Source of the DNA: Limosilactobacillus reuteri subsp. reuteri
GTDB lineage: Bacteria; Bacillota; Bacilli; Lactobacillales; Lactobacillaceae
Direction of reading: 5' to 3'
Assembly (NCBI RefSeq): GCF_000016825.1
Contig: NC_009513.1
Coordinates: 1,682,501-1,746,500 of the forward strand
DNA length: 64,000 nt
Part shown: one piece after another, positions 7,084 to 52,847 of the stretch
Layout of the letters: the number at the start of each line of letters is the position of its first letter
Numbering within the stretch: position 1 is the stretch's first letter
Translations under genes and position numbers: made by a program
Notes under the pieces: model-generated
Told to the model about the DNA's origin: nothing
The model's database searches: none
The model's input: only the letters and a program-made list of their open reading frames with translations

Positions 7084-9951
7084 TTATTGTTCGCCATTAT
7101 CTCCTTGGTTTGGGCGACGTTGTTGAAGGTGCATACCGTCATAATCGCCTTCTGGTCCAAGCAGTTCTTGGTTATTATCCAATTCCGAGCGACCAGCATA
7201 GTGATGATGTTGTAACCAAATCATACCGACTAGTAACAATGCATAGAAGACAATTGCGATTACGATAAGAACAGTGTTACAGAACATCGTGTAATGTGCT
7301 CCCAAACCACCAGAAATTGAATCACGGAGTCCTAAGATTGAGTAAGTCATTGGTAAGTACCAGTGAATTACGTTATAGAACTTCATTGTAATTTCCATTG
7401 GGAAGGTACCACCAGATCCACCTAATTGAAGCATCAAGAGAACCATGGCAAAGAATCGACCGGGGTTATCAAAGAGCATTGAAAGGAACATAACAATTGC
7501 CATTGAGGCTAACCCGAAGCATATCGTCGTCACAAAGAATGAGACTGGGTGAATAACTGTAAGTCCACACGCCATCATAATTGCGTCTTCAGCGATTGCC
7601 ATTGCAGTTACTACCAGTGATCCAACTGTTACCTTACTTGCCCACCAAGCGATTGGAGCTTTACCAAATTCAGCAACCCGGCGAATTGGGTAAACAAAGT
7701 TAAATACAAGTGCCCCAACATATATTGCTAATGATAGAACATATGGTGCTAAGGCGTGACCATAGTTTGGTACATAACTGTAATCTGTGTGCTTAAGAGC
7801 AGTTGGTTCTGCAAACATCTTGGCAGTCCGTGGTGAAGTCTTAATACCATTGATTTGCTTTGCACCACCTGCAAGAGATGTAGCCAATTGAGAAGCACCA
7901 GCATTCAACCGCGCAATTCCTGAAATAAGAGCAGGAGAATTATCTTGAAGTTGTTGAGTTCCGGCAGCTAATTGATTTACACCAGCAACAAGAGCAGGAA
8001 CTTGACCGTTTAGTTGACCAAGCGCACCAGCTAATTGAGCTGCACCAGAGTTCAAGGCCCCGCTATTAGCGTTAAGCTGGGCAATTCCGTTACCTAATTG
8101 ACCAACACCTGCTGTATATTGACCGATTCCACTAGCCAATTGACCAGCTCCGGCTCCAGCTTGCGCGACCCCAGCTGTGTATTGACCGATTCCGCTAGCT
8201 AATTGATTGGCACCGGCTCCAGCTTGAGCAACACCTGCTGTGTATTGACCAATTCCTGAATTAAGCGTACCAGCACCGGCAGCAGCACTATCAACACCAT
8301 TAGTATATTGATTTACACCACTATTAAGCGTGCTTGCTCCAGAAGAAATCTGACTTGTTGCTTGTTTAAGTTGATCAACAGCTCCTGGCATTGCCGCTAA
8401 GGTGCCTTTATAGCCATTTAAGGTTGCTAATAATGCGTTAGCTTGACGAATAGTCCCATCCGCATTATCTAACACAGCAGACATTTGTGAAAGCTGACCT
8501 AATTGTTGTTGCATACCACTCAAGCTTCCTTGAAGGTTACTCAATTGACCAAGGGTTCCACTTAATCCTTGAATAGCAGCAACATTAGCATCGGCTTTTT
8601 GCACAATTTGTTGAGCAGCCTGCTTGGATTGTTCACTAGCTTTATCATCGCTAAGAATTTGTTGTGCCAATCCAGCAATTTGACCATCGTTAGTTGCAAC
8701 ACCTTTAAGCTGATCACCAGCACTGGCAGCACCAGATAATGCTCCTGAAGCTTGTTGAAGACTAGCAGCACTACTTTGAACACCAGCAAGAGCATTCTTA
8801 GCAGTTGTCAAACCGGTCTGGAGTTGACCTAACCCTTGCTGAAGATTTTGTGCTTGATCCATGGCCCCCATAATCCCATTAAAGTTAATGTTTCCTAACT
8901 GACTGTTAACGGTTGAATTCAACTGATTAGCACCAGATGCTAATTGACCTGAACCGTTCCTTAAGTTCTCTGAATTACCACTTAACGTATTCAAACCACT
9001 ACTTAATTGGTTAGCACCAGAATTTAAGGTACCAGAGTTAGCCATTAAAGTATTTAATCCAGCATTCAACTGACTAGCACCAGAATTTAACGCACCAGAG
9101 TTAGCCATCAAAGTGCTTAATCCACTGCTCAACTGGTTAGCACCGGAATTTAGTGCACCGGAATTAGCCATTAATTGGCCAACACCATTGCCGAGGAGAC
9201 TAACCCCACCAGTATATTGCATAATACCATTTGCTAAGGTTTGGCTCCCGGTAGCAAGTTGTTGCGCACCAGAAGCTAATGGTGCAACGCTAACACGCAA
9301 GGTTTGAACCCCGTTATTTACTTGGGAAACTCCTGCAACATAACGATTTACACCATCACTCAAGGTCACCATTCCGGTACCAATTTGTTGGGCACCATCA
9401 GCGGCCTTGTTCATCCCCTTACCTACAACATGTAATTGCTTAAACATTACCGTTGCGTAAGCGTTAGTAACCTGGGCACGAATTTTTTCATTTAGCCGTG
9501 TCATCCCTGTTTGGGCAATTACCTGTCCAATGTAGTTCAAGGAACCATTAGTTTGATAATGTAACTTCATCGTCTTAGGATGCTTTTGCAAAACAGTCGT
9601 TGCATTTTCAGAGAAATCTTTAGGAATCGTAACCACCGCATAGTACTTGCGATGACTCATACCATATTTTGCTTCTTTAGCGGATACGAATTCCCATTTT
9701 AATTGGTGATTTTTCTTCAATTCATTAACGGTCTGTTTCCCAACATCCATTTTCTGGCCTTGGTATTCAACCGGAATATCCTTATTTACCACCGCAACTG
9801 GTAAGTTACGTGTACTTCCATACGGGTCCCATACTGATTTTAAGAAGAAAATACTATATAGGAAAGGTATTAAGCAAATAACCGTTACTGATAAAAGCAG
9901 TAAACGGTTATGAATAATATGACGAAATTCGCCTTTAATCATGCTCCACAT
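7084..9951 (-). CDS. YhgE/Pip domain membrane protein with long repeat region
   Basis: Large membrane protein (955 residues) of the YhgE/Pip family, related to ABC-2-type export permeases and to the lactococcal phage infection protein. Seen: an N-terminal membrane segment (about 15-37) followed by the family signature DPYGSTRNLPVAVVNKD; a central extracytoplasmic region (about 190-690) built from many short repeats of the form NSGANQLSSGL or YTAGVAQAGAGA; then a C-terminal block of about six membrane segments (about 740-920) and a hydrophilic tail. No ATPase is encoded nearby. The start ATG 9951 follows AGGTGAAGT. The TetR gene lies 36 bases upstream on the same strand, so the pair is likely autoregulated. 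Function (export, surface structure or phage sensitivity) is not proven by the sequence. Confidence 0.88.
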   Translation of the reverse strand: MWSMIKGEFRHIIHNRLLLLSVTVICLIPFLYSIFFLKSVWDPYGSTRNLPVAVVNKDIPVEYQGQKMDVGKQTVNELKKNHQLKWEFVSAKEAKYGMSHRKYYAVVTIPKDFSENATTVLQKHPKTMKLHYQTNGSLNYIGQVIAQTGMTRLNEKIRAQVTNAYATVMFKQLHVVGKGMNKAADGAQQIGTGMVTLSDGVNRYVAGVSQVNNGVQTLRVSVAPLASGAQQLATGSQTLANGIMQYTGGVSLLGNGVGQLMANSGALNSGANQLSSGLSTLMANSGALNSGASQLNAGLNTLMANSGTLNSGANQLSSGLNTLSGNSENLRNGSGQLASGANQLNSTVNSQLGNINFNGIMGAMDQAQNLQQGLGQLQTGLTTAKNALAGVQSSAASLQQASGALSGAASAGDQLKGVATNDGQIAGLAQQILSDDKASEQSKQAAQQIVQKADANVAAIQGLSGTLGQLSNLQGSLSGMQQQLGQLSQMSAVLDNADGTIRQANALLATLNGYKGTLAAMPGAVDQLKQATSQISSGASTLNSGVNQYTNGVDSAAAGAGTLNSGIGQYTAGVAQAGAGANQLASGIGQYTAGVAQAGAGAGQLASGIGQYTAGVGQLGNGIAQLNANSGALNSGAAQLAGALGQLNGQVPALVAGVNQLAAGTQQLQDNSPALISGIARLNAGASQLATSLAGGAKQINGIKTSPRTAKMFAEPTALKHTDYSYVPNYGHALAPYVLSLAIYVGALVFNFVYPIRRVAEFGKAPIAWWASKVTVGSLVVTAMAIAEDAIMMACGLTVIHPVSFFVTTICFGLASMAIVMFLSMLFDNPGRFFAMVLLMLQLGGSGGTFPMEITMKFYNVIHWYLPMTYSILGLRDSISGGLGAHYTMFCNTVLIVIAIVFYALLLVGMIWLQHHHYAGRSELDNNQELLGPEGDYDGMHLQQRRPNQGDNGEQ

Positions 9952-48806: not shown

Positions 48807-49976
48807 ATGAAATATCGTTTACAAGCTATTATTTTTGTCTTCGTTGCCTTTATGCTTGGGTGTAACGAATATATGATTGTCGGCGTTTTACCTGATATTG
48901 CTCATGAATACCATGATTCACTTGGTAAGTTAGGCCTACTTGTAACTGTGTTTGCCTTGGTTTATGCTATCTTTACTCCGATTATTACTTCAATGGCAAA
49001 TCGGTGGCGACGACATCATGTCTTATTAGTTCTCATGGTCATTTTCTTTATCGGCAATACCTGGACAGCGATGGCGCCAAACTTTATTTCAATGTTGCTT
49101 TCACGGATTCTAACCGCTAGTGTTGCCGGTGCGATTATCTCAATGGTCCTCGTAATGGCGAGCTATGTTGCGCCGCGCGAAAAAAGAGCAAGCCTGGTTT
49201 CATGGGTTTTTGCTGGATTTAGTATCGCGTCAGTTATCGGTATTCCAATCGGGACCGTTATCAGCACTACCCTTACTTGGCATGATAGTTTTTGGATGAT
49301 TTCTGGAATAACAATCATTGTTTTTGTCGCCTTACTCTGGCTCGTCCCACGTGATACGCCTCAATTTAAGAGTACCCTTAGTAAACAATTTGTGTTATTT
49401 AAGGATTCTCGAATCATTCTCGGTGTTAGTTTCATCGTTGCTACTTGTGCGGCTGACTACACAATTTATACCTATATTCGACCTTTAATCACTAACGAAA
49501 TGGGCTTTGATAATACTTGGTTAAATTGGCTCTTATTCGGAATGGGAATTTTCTTTATTATTGGTAATAAATTTGGTGGCTACCTGGCGGACCGTGGCGG
49601 AATCCACCGACTCAGTGGAATCTACGCGGCAATGACAGTCTTATTTCTCATCTTTGGCCCCGTCTTACCATTCAAGTGGGGCGCCATTATTATTGTGGCT
49701 GTCTTATGTATTGCCTTTTCATGCTATGGCTCTTCCACCCAATTGATGTTCCTCGATATTGCCGAAAAACAATATCCTCAATCACTTGACTTAGCTTCAT
49801 CTCTAAACTCGATTTTTGCTAATATTGGTATTTCGCTGGGCTCTTTTACTGCCTCTCAGGCTGTCACCTTCACTGCCATGAAAAATCTCGGTTACGTTGG
49901 TGCAGTCTATGGGCTTCTCGCAACAATACTAGTCATCGTCCTTAGCAAAAAATATACGGGGATGCGCAATTATTAA
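48807..49976 (+). CDS. MFS transporter, DHA1-type exporter
   Basis: 389 residues, twelve segments. Seen: CNEYMIVGVLPDIAHEYH near 18-35, as in AraJ/YdhP-type exporters, and motif A region ITSMANRWRRHHVL near 63. Such proteins export sugars, drugs or purines; no substrate can be set. ATG 48807 follows AGGGAGGG by eight bases; the longer frame starts at TTG 48762 with no site. Divergent from the PTS IIC gene. Terminator 49989-50018. Confidence 0.88.
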   Translation: MKYRLQAIIFVFVAFMLGCNEYMIVGVLPDIAHEYHDSLGKLGLLVTVFALVYAIFTPIITSMANRWRRHHVLLVLMVIFFIGNTWTAMAPNFISMLLSRILTASVAGAIISMVLVMASYVAPREKRASLVSWVFAGFSIASVIGIPIGTVISTTLTWHDSFWMISGITIIVFVALLWLVPRDTPQFKSTLSKQFVLFKDSRIILGVSFIVATCAADYTIYTYIRPLITNEMGFDNTWLNWLLFGMGIFFIIGNKFGGYLADRGGIHRLSGIYAAMTVLFLIFGPVLPFKWGAIIIVAVLCIAFSCYGSSTQLMFLDIAEKQYPQSLDLASSLNSIFANIGISLGSFTASQAVTFTAMKNLGYVGAVYGLLATILVIVLSKKYTGMRNY

Positions 49977-49988
49977 TCTTAACTTTGA

Positions 49989-50018
49989 GTACAGATGGAT
50001 TTTCTATCTGTGCTTTTT
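49989..50018 (+). terminator. Intrinsic terminator after the MFS exporter gene
   Basis: ACAGAT (49991-49996) with ATCTGT (50006-50011), flanking G/C pair and T5. Confidence 0.75.
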
Positions 50019-50086
50019 ATTTCCCGGGAAATTAATATGCAACTAATAGTAGCGGGGTGAGCAATTGTTGTTATCTAAGGATTCTA

Positions 50087-50115
50087 TTGACCTTTTAAGC
50101 AGATCCAATTAAATT
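50087..50115 (+). promoter_or_regulatory. Promoter of the HTH-ABC operon
   Basis: TTGACC at 50087-50092, 17 bases, TAAATT at 50110-50115. The start codon is 33 bases further on. I see no clear palindromic operator. Confidence 0.5.
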
Positions 50116-50148
50116 CTAAATATAGATTTTGAAAAGGAGCTTTTTGCT

Positions 50149-51030
50149 ATGTCATACTCTTTCCCGCATCAACTGCTCAAATTGCGGACTGAAAAACAAT
50201 TATCACAAGCTGAACTAGCTACGCGCCTGTTTGTTTCCCGCCAGGCCGTCTCCAAATGGGAAAACGGGGATGCTGAACCAAGTATCGACAAGCTAATTTT
50301 GCTTGCCAAAGTTTTTAATGTTTCATTAGACCGCCTCATCCTGGGAACAAACGACTTTAATCAACCACTGGTAAAACTTAATAATATTGTTAAAACTTTT
50401 AACTCACCAGTTCTCAACAGCCTTGATTTAACTATTCAGAATAATGAACGCATTGCCCTCCTTGGTAGTAATGGCGCTGGTAAAACAACTTTAGTAAAGA
50501 TAATTGAAGGTACTTTGAAACCCAACGAAGGTACTGTTAAATGGTATTTTAATAAAAATGATTCTTTAAATATCATGTCCCAAGAAAATGTTTTAATTCC
50601 GACCCTAAAAGTTAAAGAGCAAATCAGTTTGACAGCCGCCATAACTAAGGTTGATTCAAAACAACGAATCAATTATCTTCTTGATCAATTTAAATTATCA
50701 TCCCAGCCAAATACAATTATTGCGAAATTGTCAGGTGGACAAAAACGTCGCCTTTCGCTCTTACTTAGCGTCCTCCGTCAGTCCAAACTTCTGATCCTAG
50801 ACGAGCCGACTGTTGGGATGGATTTAGAATCAATTGACTATTTTTGGCATTTTATTGAAAAGGTTTCAGGAAGTATTTTAGTTATTACTCATGATTTCAA
50901 TCAAATTGATAAATTCTTTTCCCGTGTTCTGCTCCTTAAAGATGGCCAAATTTCTCACGACATCCCTGTTAAAGAAATTCACCAACATAATCAAACAATC
51001 GAACAATGGTATCGTCAACATAATCGTTAG
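50149..51030 (+). CDS. XRE DNA-binding domain fused to an ABC transporter ATPase
   Basis: 293 residues with two complete domains. Residues about 7-62: Cro/CI helix-turn-helix (LSQAELATRLFVSRQAVSKW, then SLDRLILG). Residues about 72-285: an ABC ATPase with Walker A GSNGAGKTT at 106, LSGGQKRR near 193, Walker B LLILDEPTVGMD near 213 and switch histidine ITHD near 247. There is no frameshift or stop at the join, and one ribosome site (AAAAGGAG) serves the whole. The permease gene follows after 10 bases. The same polypeptide thus can bind DNA and drive the transporter; self-regulation of the operon by transport state is inference. Confidence 0.92.
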   Translation: MSYSFPHQLLKLRTEKQLSQAELATRLFVSRQAVSKWENGDAEPSIDKLILLAKVFNVSLDRLILGTNDFNQPLVKLNNIVKTFNSPVLNSLDLTIQNNERIALLGSNGAGKTTLVKIIEGTLKPNEGTVKWYFNKNDSLNIMSQENVLIPTLKVKEQISLTAAITKVDSKQRINYLLDQFKLSSQPNTIIAKLSGGQKRRLSLLLSVLRQSKLLILDEPTVGMDLESIDYFWHFIEKVSGSILVITHDFNQIDKFFSRVLLLKDGQISHDIPVKEIHQHNQTIEQWYRQHNR

Positions 51031-51040
51031 GAGCTTTCTT

Positions 51041-51751
51041 ATGAATATCATAGCAATTCAACTAAAACAAGTTTTACGCAATCGTCGTTTCTTTCTTTTT
51101 ACTATTCTCCTGCCAGGTATTTGGTATGTATTTATGATTCAAGTTGCTAGTACATCTCTCCCCGCTACTGGCAACTTCCGGCTTGCTTTACTCTTGCTTG
51201 CTCTCCTGATGGGAATACTCGGCAATTCAATCGTTACTTTCAGCAAACGCATTTGTAGTAATAAGGACTTCTATATTTTTCAATCGCACATTAGCCACTA
51301 TTCTTTGTGGAACTATTTATTTTCGCAATTAACTACCCAAGTCATCATAAATTTGTTCATCACCATCGTAATTATGATTCTTGCCATTTTTCTTCATACT
51401 ATTGAGTTCAACTTTATTACTATCACTAGTATTTTATTAACCAATATTATCGGAATATATCTAAGCGTGATCGGGTTTGCAATTGGGCTTTCCTTTGACG
51501 CACCAACTGTTGATGCCGCTGGAACCCCAATCCTATTTATAATCGCAACTTTTATTATTCCGTGGAAACACCTCTTACCAGCTAATTCTTTTATTGATTT
51601 TTTTACTAATATACAAAAGCTATTTCCAACTTATTATCTTTATGCCGACCTTGATCATCTATCGGTTAGTCATCTTGGGCTACTATTTGTAACTGCGATT
51701 ATTACTCTGCTACCTTGGCTTGGCTTTATCTATCGAAAATTAATCAATTAA
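51041..51751 (+). CDS. ABC-2-type permease partner of the HTH-ABC ATPase
   Basis: 236 residues with six hydrophobic segments and an ABC-2-like N-terminus (QLKQVLRNRRFFLFTILLPGIWYVFM). It starts at ATG 51041 with AGGAG upstream, ten bases after the ATPase stop; the longer frame back to 50891 runs inside the ATPase gene. Probably exports a peptide, lipid or drug. Terminator 51752-51798. Confidence 0.88.
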   Translation: MNIIAIQLKQVLRNRRFFLFTILLPGIWYVFMIQVASTSLPATGNFRLALLLLALLMGILGNSIVTFSKRICSNKDFYIFQSHISHYSLWNYLFSQLTTQVIINLFITIVIMILAIFLHTIEFNFITITSILLTNIIGIYLSVIGFAIGLSFDAPTVDAAGTPILFIIATFIIPWKHLLPANSFIDFFTNIQKLFPTYYLYADLDHLSVSHLGLLFVTAIITLLPWLGFIYRKLIN

Positions 51752-51798
51752 AAAAACCGGAATACTTAGTATGTTTAGTACTAGGTATTCCGGTTTTT
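51752..51798. terminator. Bidirectional terminator after the ABC permease gene
   Basis: 20-bp stem: 51752-51771 with 51779-51798 (AAAAACCGGAATACTTAGTA against its complement, one G-U). Confidence 0.92.
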
Positions 51799-51799
51799 C

Positions 51800-51984
51800 G
51801 TGTATTGATACTATCTCAAGTCAATCAGCACTGTCCACATGGCCGATTAACTGGACACCTCACAATCCGGTGAGTTAATGTGTCTCACTTGCCAAAATGT
51901 CAATGGTAGCTCTTAGGGTCGCTACCAGACCTCTCGACTCATCGCAAACTATAATTTAGCATATTTGACCCATTGATGCAACTC
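51800..51984. other. Structured intergenic region, unassigned
   Basis: About 185 bases with no open frame. Hairpins: GACAC/GTGTC enclosing CTCAC/GTGAG (51854-51884), TGGTAGC/GCTACCA (51904-51927), and a competing GTCCA/TGGAC (51833-51856). Richer in G and C than other gaps here. Could be a small RNA or a decayed palindromic repeat. Confidence 0.35.
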
Positions 51985-52443
51985 TTATGCTCTTGCTTCC
52001 ATTATATCTGCAAGGTGTTCGGCTACCCATTCTTGAGCTTTAGTAACCAAATCAGTTGTCTTTCCACTTTGATCGGTTTCATTTGCTAATTCATCGATCC
52101 GCAATCCCGTTTTATTAATATCTTCACTCTCCATTACTAAATAAAGATTAACAGGGTACTCGATCTCTTTATCCAATAATTTAACATCTAATCGCTCTGC
52201 CTCATCCATCGGTATGTTGATTAAGTTGGTTTCTAAGCGAAAGCTAACTGGATCACCTTTTTTCATTTTAATATTCATCTTATATTGACCAAGGTGTCCC
52301 GTATCAAGCTGTTCAATCATAAAATTAATCGCAGTTGTTAATACTGTTTTTTGCTGTGATTGGGCAGCAGTTTTTTCAACTTCTTCTGTCACAACCTGAT
52401 CGCTCGTCAACTGTGACAAATAATCAGCTACTGACATCTTCAT
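51985..52443 (-). CDS. Hypothetical protein, 152 residues
   Basis: Soluble, acidic protein without signal peptide or membrane segment. I do not recognise the family. Seen: helix-rich N-terminus (VTEEVEKTAAQSQQKT) and a middle beta-type part (GQYKMNIKMKKGDPVSFRLE). ATG 52443 overlaps the stop of the upstream gene by four bases (ATGA), with GGAG ahead, so the two are coupled. An in-frame ATG at 52437 is an alternative. Confidence 0.75.
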   Translation of the reverse strand: MKMSVADYLSQLTSDQVVTEEVEKTAAQSQQKTVLTTAINFMIEQLDTGHLGQYKMNIKMKKGDPVSFRLETNLINIPMDEAERLDVKLLDKEIEYPVNLYLVMESEDINKTGLRIDELANETDQSGKTTDLVTKAQEWVAEHLADIMEARA

Positions 52444-52847
52444 TTTTTTATTTGCTCCTTCATTTTTTCAATTTTAGCTTTTGTATAGTCTGCACGCTGT
52501 TTTGCACCATAATAAACACCAGCAGCTCCTACTAAAATTCCAACAATACTTAGTGCTTGAATAAATAATCCGTAGGCACTTTCTCGTGGACTTACCATTT
52601 GAAATGCGGCTAAACTAGCGATTGCAAAATAAAGGTTTACTAAAATCGTTGCATATCCACAAAAGCGCATCTTTAAAAACGATAATCCGTTAACAATGAT
52701 TGCTAAAACGATAAAGAGGAGCAGCCGCGGCCATACAGATGATGATGTCAGCGAGTGACCATGCTGAACAAACATAAAAGCATCAAGGACTAATGCAATT
52801 ACTGCTGCTACTGATGTTACAATAACAACTTTTTCATTATTTTTCAT
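52440..52847 (-). CDS. Hypothetical four-segment membrane protein
   Basis: 135 residues with four hydrophobic segments (about 8-26, 40-58, 64-82 and 93-110) and a basic coil at the end (TKAKIEKMKEQIKK). No family recognised. First gene of a two-gene unit with the 152-residue protein. Terminator 52915-52945 lies upstream and belongs to lplA. The start region carries only a weak site. Confidence 0.75.
   Translation of the reverse strand: MKNNEKVVIVTSVAAVIALVLDAFMFVQHGHSLTSSSVWPRLLLFIVLAIIVNGLSFLKMRFCGYATILVNLYFAIASLAAFQMVSPRESAYGLFIQALSIVGILVGAAGVYYGAKQRADYTKAKIEKMKEQIKK

Follow-up and report, generated by a model that had tools for sequence, protein, structure and literature searches.

Our study suggests that a transport ATPase of Limosilactobacillus reuteri doubles as the transcription factor of its own operon, which it would activate through the inverted repeat GCAAC-N5-GTTGC, and that together with its permease it exports a substrate; we consider this explanation moderately probable. 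It is probable that the pump activates its own genes, since in nearly all copies of the locus the site lies at one of a few fixed distances from the predicted promoter. The evidence is read from the DNA and protein sequences themselves and consists of the fusion of an XRE domain to the ATPase, its conservation, its partner permease, the site, the co-occurrence of this site with the XRE domain, and the preferred promoter distances. We infer from it that the fused XRE domain is what binds the repeat and that its binding activates transcription.

An ABC ATPase with its own XRE domain

The preliminary description of the window (the whole stretch of DNA analysed, 64,000 nucleotides) had proposed that one frame joins a Cro/CI helix-turn-helix, at about residues 7-62, to an ABC ATPase, and this proved correct: the frame occupies 50149-51030 and has an HTH_3 domain at residues 10-63. 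The genes and domains are as follows.

50134..50139, + strand: AAGGAG ribosome-binding site of the fusion gene (direct reading)
50149..51030, + strand: XRE-ABC fusion gene, 293 aa (single open frame, ATG start)
Fusion protein: HTH_3 at residues 10-63, variable linker at 67-73, ABC ATPase at 74-290 (Pfam, alignment, AlphaFold2 model)
51041..51751, + strand: ABC-2-like permease, 236 aa (frame, Pfam, hydropathy, homology)

The HTH_3 match scores 62.8 bits against a Pfam cut-off of 23 (E 3.1e-17), and the ABC_tran match at residues 89-221 (E 5.4e-29) is likewise above its curated cut-off. As had been claimed, the ATPase is complete and has the features that define the ABC_tran family, i.e. Walker A (GSNGAGKT), the signature (LSGGQ), Walker B (LLILDEPT) and the switch histidine (in THDF), with a cognate permease adjacent; the key residues of these motifs are invariant or nearly so in an alignment of 34 fused sequences. 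In the same 34 sequences the recognition-helix residues R31, Q32, S35, K36 and W37 are invariant. Mean pairwise identity is 0.63 in the XRE domain, 0.59 in the ATPase, 0.81 in the stretch 28-40 and 0.17 in the linker, and pN is well below pS in the XRE domain and the ATPase alike (six close pairs). The AlphaFold2 model, made from 31 aligned sequences (28 fused and 3 XRE-less rows), has a mean pLDDT of 88 and consists of a five-helix XRE domain, a short link and then the ATPase fold.

The gene is present as a single copy in its own genome, where, of the 49 matches to the protein, no other one both starts before query residue 51 and reaches the ATPase. Public records name the protein variously as an XRE regulator, an ABC transporter or an ATP-binding cassette protein. 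The best 120 of 6370 matches in the protein database search are each at least 97% identical, and further, unrelated XRE-ABC fusions could exist elsewhere in the databases. No solved structure of such a fusion was found by sequence among the best 60 of 530 rows; in these, YbiT (9njf_Y), presumably an ABC-F ATPase and no fusion, aligns from profile position 22, which is taken as chance, and the rest align from position 66 or later. The Foldseek rows considered (50 of 1830), which carry no aligned ranges, look like transport ATPases by title where the title is informative. A defence system was rejected as an explanation, the PADLOC matches listed (25 of 26) all being HTH or ATPase matches.

The preliminary description had placed a six-segment ABC-2 permease after the ATPase. 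An ABC-2-like homologue is indeed the next gene, but its match to Pfam ABC2_membrane falls below the cut-off (22.9 bits against 26.9, E 7e-5), and a rough count of hydrophobic segments, made on the longer frame, comes to seven, compared to five to seven in relatives whose frame is full-length; six membrane segments are plausible. The gene most likely starts at 51041, because the ORF-finder start at 50891 falls within the upstream gene. The expectation that the permease always follows was borne out: a homologue lies directly 3' of the ATPase gene in 40 of 40 orthologous GenBank loci (L038-L077), a count that takes in fragmentary genes as well as three XRE-less loci. All three intact plasmid loci described below also match a permease of this family, and there the next gene is annotated as a permease in two and as hypothetical in one. 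After the permease, a third small gene is present as a listed frame in 11 loci and, by tblastn, in 15 of 37 fused-type GenBank loci. Its product of about 90 residues (roughly 85-107 aa; e.g. L049, 5631-5939) has no Pfam match above the cut-off and one below it. This gene occurs in Leuconostoc, Liquorilactobacillus, Convivina, some Apilactobacillus and some Lactobacillus species, and was found neither among the listed frames of Limosilactobacillus nor by tblastn in this genus. Just 3' of the operon in the window, at 51830-51946 on the - strand, there is a match to Rfam RF02840 (Ref68 / Lacto-3 sRNA; 66.8 bits against a cut-off of 44).

Distribution and origin of the fusion

The search for this architecture across lactobacilli that had been proposed revealed fused orthologues throughout the Lactobacillaceae, at 53-97% identity and in many genera: Limosilactobacillus, Lactiplantibacillus, Levilactobacillus, Leuconostoc, Liquorilactobacillus, Apilactobacillus, Holzapfeliella, Convivina and further Lactobacillus species. 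Matches of nearly whole length (query start at residue 9 or before, end at 291 or beyond) were obtained in 24 of 201 sampled Lactobacillaceae genomes, with four further listed matches that are partial or broken; at the level of the genus, 11 of 50 genomes have the fusion gene. At the level of the order, 22 of 395 genomes have matches at E ≤1e-40, ten within Lactobacillaceae and the remaining twelve in one genus of another family, with copies that have no XRE domain. At the class and phylum levels, matches at E ≤1e-32 were seen in 11 of 398 and 2 of 398 genomes, respectively, and at this threshold none of those outside Lactobacillaceae extends into the XRE domain proper.

Three intact copies of the fusion are plasmid-borne, including those of L. 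plantarum (L119) and L. oris (L120). The same fusion, with a link of equal or near-equal length, thus recurs in many independent genomes and plasmids, which makes an artefact of assembly or annotation where the domains meet practically negligible as an explanation. An assembly error, a concern raised in the preliminary description along with the existence of homologues, is ruled out by the independent genomes that bear the same fusion. The L. oris plasmid with the intact operon also has a predicted tet(W) gene, at 7513-9429. On an L. reuteri plasmid (L122) the fusion frame is shortened and followed by an IS30 gene; here the operator discussed below lies 752 bp 5' of the shortened frame, with another gene in between.

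A tree built from 46 ATPase domains groups all 32 fused rows in a single clade (97/96, one change) beside the XRE-less orthologues, and the fusion therefore most likely arose once, as judged from these sequences. The tree leaves aside L050 (masked bases), L064 (short frame), L055, L071, L076 and L077, as well as all fused loci from the sampled-genome searches, and includes 5 of the 12 order-level XRE-less loci. Eight loci with 23-29% identity (L078-L085) were dropped from the 48 loci as unrelated ATPases.

A conserved inverted repeat accompanies the XRE domain

Two palindromes lie upstream of the fusion gene.

50020..50031, + strand: second palindrome TTTCCCGGGAAA, 7 bp before the operator
50039..50053, + strand: predicted operator, inverted repeat GCAACTAATAGTAGC (usual family form GCAACYNNNRGTTGC)

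Of 36 regions upstream of fused genes, 35 contain the motif GCAAC-N5-GTTGC with no more than one mismatch and the last, L053, has it with two, compared to a mean of 0.11 and a maximum of 2 of 36 in a dinucleotide-shuffle control. This count was made without L055 (no in-frame start codon) and L076 (broken frame), and keeps L071 (broken frame) and L077 (fragment). The upstream regions differ widely between genera, and the repeat starts mostly about 110 bp 5' of the start codon (95-140). We take the 15-bp palindrome to resemble operators of the 434 type. Its spacer is 5 bp in 35 of the 36 regions; a spacer of 13 bp is seen in 8 and each other length from 0 to 15 in at most 4. Inverted repeats can form hairpins, and the repeat might accordingly work in RNA, as part of a leader transcript, instead of as a DNA operator. 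This is very improbable, given the almost constant spacer, the position of the repeat upstream of the predicted promoter and the lack of any Rfam match at the repeat at E ≤1 in the region searched (49500-52600).

The operator was also present in all three intact plasmid loci, which were found later and were not used in defining the motif (0, 0 and 1 mismatches), and, at up to two mismatches, in 33 of 35 loci from sampled genomes, many of them of the same species as in the first set. L029 has the fusion gene with the operator reduced to one half-site, and in L100, whose record has genes abutting with no intergenic DNA around the locus, the full operator is missing. The genome record behind L100 (G556) resembles concatenated coding sequences, not a natural chromosome. 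Among XRE-less orthologues, no match at one mismatch or less was found in 15 of 16 loci, 12 of the 16 being from one genus. L073, also XRE-less, has two matches to the repeat, one 3.8 kb upstream and one within its permease gene; in the XRE-less plasmid locus L123 the sole match at this threshold lies more than 2 kb past the gene start.

A scan of 47 Limosilactobacillus genomes, with a model that uses sequence only and filters that can lose weak matches, gave sites at E <1e-3 in nine genomes, every one of them at this gene. A strong site was thus present in 9 of the 10 genomes that have the gene (the tenth being the record behind L100) and in 0 of 37 without it; the next-best match has an E of 0.042. 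Because the model was built from such sites, the informative part of this result is the absence of other strong sites. A wider regulon is not supported, only this gene having a strong site in the 47 genomes of the genus. In the genome of the window itself, the pattern GCAACN5GTWGC occurs six times (control, 6), and the copy at the fusion gene is the only one free of an open frame. The other five sit in open frames of 214-952 codons, and one of them (L132) is also 73 bp before another frame.

The preliminary description had proposed that the ATPase is a DNA-binding regulator of its own operon, and this part of its proposal is well supported by the comparisons made here because the conserved inverted repeat tracks the XRE domain. 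A paralogue could in principle read the same palindrome, in which case a separate regulator would act at the repeat and the fused XRE domain would do other work, such as protein contact or tethering. We consider this quite improbable: the strong sites of the genus scan are confined to this gene, the XRE-less orthologues have no upstream site save the one 3.8 kb away in L073, and the five recognition-helix residues named above are invariant. The operator variants also track residue 33 of the fusion protein, with perfect sites in 1 of 14 loci with Ala33 and 16 of 20 with Ser33, though this pairing could be due to ancestry.

The second palindrome occurs as TTTCCYRGGAAA in 11 of 39 upstream regions, i.e. 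in all ten of the Limosilactobacillus group and in L119, and is missing from the other 28, the L. oris plasmid L120 among them. It is perhaps the site of another regulator.

Position of the operator relative to the predicted promoter

The promoter at 50087-50115 put forward in the preliminary description matches the best -35/-10 pair found upstream of the fusion gene.

50087..50092, + strand: predicted -35 box TTGACC, 41 bp from the operator centre
50110..50115, + strand: predicted -10 box TAAATT, 64 bp from the operator centre

Both deviate from the consensus, as would suit a promoter in need of help. Across 39 loci, with promoters predicted by consensus only and with box patterns and distance classes picked after viewing the data, a -35-like box starts 41 bp from the operator centre in 17, 50 bp in 7 and 30 bp in 2, and a -10-like box starts at 63/64 bp in 16, 72/73 bp in 14 and 52 bp in 2. 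A -10-like box is thus found in some distance class in 32 of the 39 loci and in none in 7; four of the 39 (L044, L046, L050 and L068) have neither box within a class. Seven loci of the Limosilactobacillus group have an extra -10-like match at 77 bp besides that at 63/64 bp, apart from which the off-class -10-like matches are scattered. In the plasmid loci the -35 offsets are 41, 41 and 50.

A promoter picker blind to the classes placed 14 of 16 clades in them, or 13 if the tie in Leuconostoc is broken otherwise. The Rayleigh R of 0.73 at 10.5 bp (observed value calculated per clade, with the tied Leuconostoc clade counted in class) was matched by 1 of 1000 shuffles, which took one row per clade, and R was higher, 0.83, at 9.5 bp; since the loci are related, the shuffles overstate significance and this phasing score serves as a guide only. 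When the tree is read by eye, several separate switches between distance classes are seen. If transcription is assumed to begin about 12 bp beyond the first base of the -10 box, the operator centre would be near -64, -75 or -84. These are typical positions for activators that touch RNA polymerase; repressors more often cover the promoter.

The preliminary description had further proposed that the protein binds DNA when idle and leaves it when docked or loaded, which implies repression, and this part of its proposal goes against the geometry: an operator upstream of the predicted promoter, at distances that step by about one helical turn, favours positive self-regulation over binding by the idle protein. 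Repressors are common among XRE/Cro-CI proteins, and a site associated with its own gene and seemingly unique in the genus scan would fit negative feedback equally well. The XRE-ABC protein could thus act on the same site as an autorepressor that leaves upon docking to the permease or upon substrate loading. We nevertheless consider this unlikely, since there is no overlap between the site and the predicted promoter (the site is centred about 30, 41 or 50 bp 5' of the -35 box), the distance between operator and -35 box changes between lineages in steps of about one helical turn, and both predicted boxes in the window are off consensus.

We therefore favour self-activation, for which the following sequence of events can be envisaged. 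There would be a low basal level of the fusion protein to begin with, whose activity would be set by ATP, the permease or the substrate, any of which may alter its shape or pairing. The XRE domain, as a dimer, would then bind the inverted repeat about 75 bp 5' of the start site, and the two bound XRE domains would aid RNA polymerase at a weak promoter, such that more fusion protein and permease would be made in the presence of the substrate. This substrate, most likely a peptide antibiotic and perhaps one of the thiopeptide type, would be exported by the ATPase/permease pair. A more specific, and doubtful, version of this mechanism is that the transport cycle itself is the switch, with the ATP-driven closure of the ATPases on the permease bringing the XRE domains to the spacing of the operator. 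If this were true, the docked, working pump would grip the operator and contact RNA polymerase, and a transporter would be a direct activator of transcription.

XRE-less relatives and the possible substrate

The nearest XRE-less relatives found are ATPase/permease pairs of L. curvatus and Streptococcus, which, unlike the fusion, have neither an XRE domain nor an operator just upstream. Their ATPases are 50-51% identical to the fusion protein in two Streptococcus loci and 44% in Latilactobacillus curvatus, and the permeases 36-38% (three rows compared). On the L. curvatus plasmid NZ_AP024686.1, the pair is at the end of an annotated thiopeptide cluster, with genes for a thiopeptide-type bacteriocin, YcaO, a lantibiotic dehydratase C-terminal domain and a nitroreductase; according to the annotation, there is an Agr-like system near the cluster and a GHKL kinase and a LytTR regulator near the pair. 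By Pfam, a GHKL kinase and a LytTR regulator are also found near the XRE-less pairs L125 and L126, and the kinase in L086; in L125 (8007-11741) they adjoin the pair, with a groEL-like frame, identified by eye, nearby. This two-component regulator beside some XRE-less sisters, set against the fused XRE domain, points to rewiring through a domain fusion.

Six XRE-less loci were compared: one has the full thiopeptide cluster, three have 1-3 of its genes (three in S. sobrinus L073, one in L074 and one in the lactobacillus locus L126) and two have none: no thiopeptide cluster gene was found beside the pair in L075 or in L125, the latter standing for twelve genomes of one genus. With the exception of the transporter pair, no gene of the L. 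curvatus cluster (L124) was found at E 1e-8 in 39 fused-type loci, whose flanks were mostly 4 kb. The location of some XRE-less sisters in or beside thiopeptide genes hints at efflux of a peptide antibiotic. Adjacent biosynthesis genes, the mark of a thiopeptide immunity/export pair, were not found at the fused-type loci, and the idea of a thiopeptide producer was rejected, there being no YcaO in the own genome and no cluster genes beside the fused loci. On the simplest reading, which draws on kinship and is the weakest part of our proposal, the fused form would be a stand-alone efflux pair directed against the peptides of neighbours.

Comparison with known systems

Drug sensing by pump workload is common in bacteria and normally involves a separate sensor. 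A transport ATPase that influences transcription is MalK of E. coli, which does so by binding a separate activator, MalT, whereas here the DNA-binding domain belongs to the ATPase. Like the XRE/Cro-CI (HTH_3) regulators, the fusion protein has a domain of this family with invariant recognition-helix residues and a palindromic operator linked to its gene; unlike them, its would-be sensing and pairing part is an ABC ATPase.

The closest parallel may be BcrR, whose XRE-type helix-turn-helix binds inverted repeats. BcrR of E. faecalis is described as a transmembrane one-component regulator that activates its exporter genes in response to bacitracin (PMC3968067). The proposed circuit would be similar to BcrR-BcrAB in that a one-component regulator activates the genes of its own ABC exporter in response to the exported antibiotic (PMC3968067). 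It differs in that BcrR is a separate transmembrane protein with its own transcription unit (PMC3968067), whereas here the helix-turn-helix is on the soluble ATPase subunit. In the fusion, an ATPase takes the place of the transmembrane part and the regulator is fused into the transporter gene, such that a BcrR-like role would have moved onto the ATPase.

No account of the XRE-ABC fusion was found in the literature searched, which was mostly outside subscription journals; both domains and separate exporter regulators are well known, and it is their combination in one protein that would be new. One protein of 293 residues, with one genomic site, may here serve as sensor, as ATP-burning engine and as gene switch. 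If so, this would be a minimal and movable circuit in which to study flux-coupled transcription.
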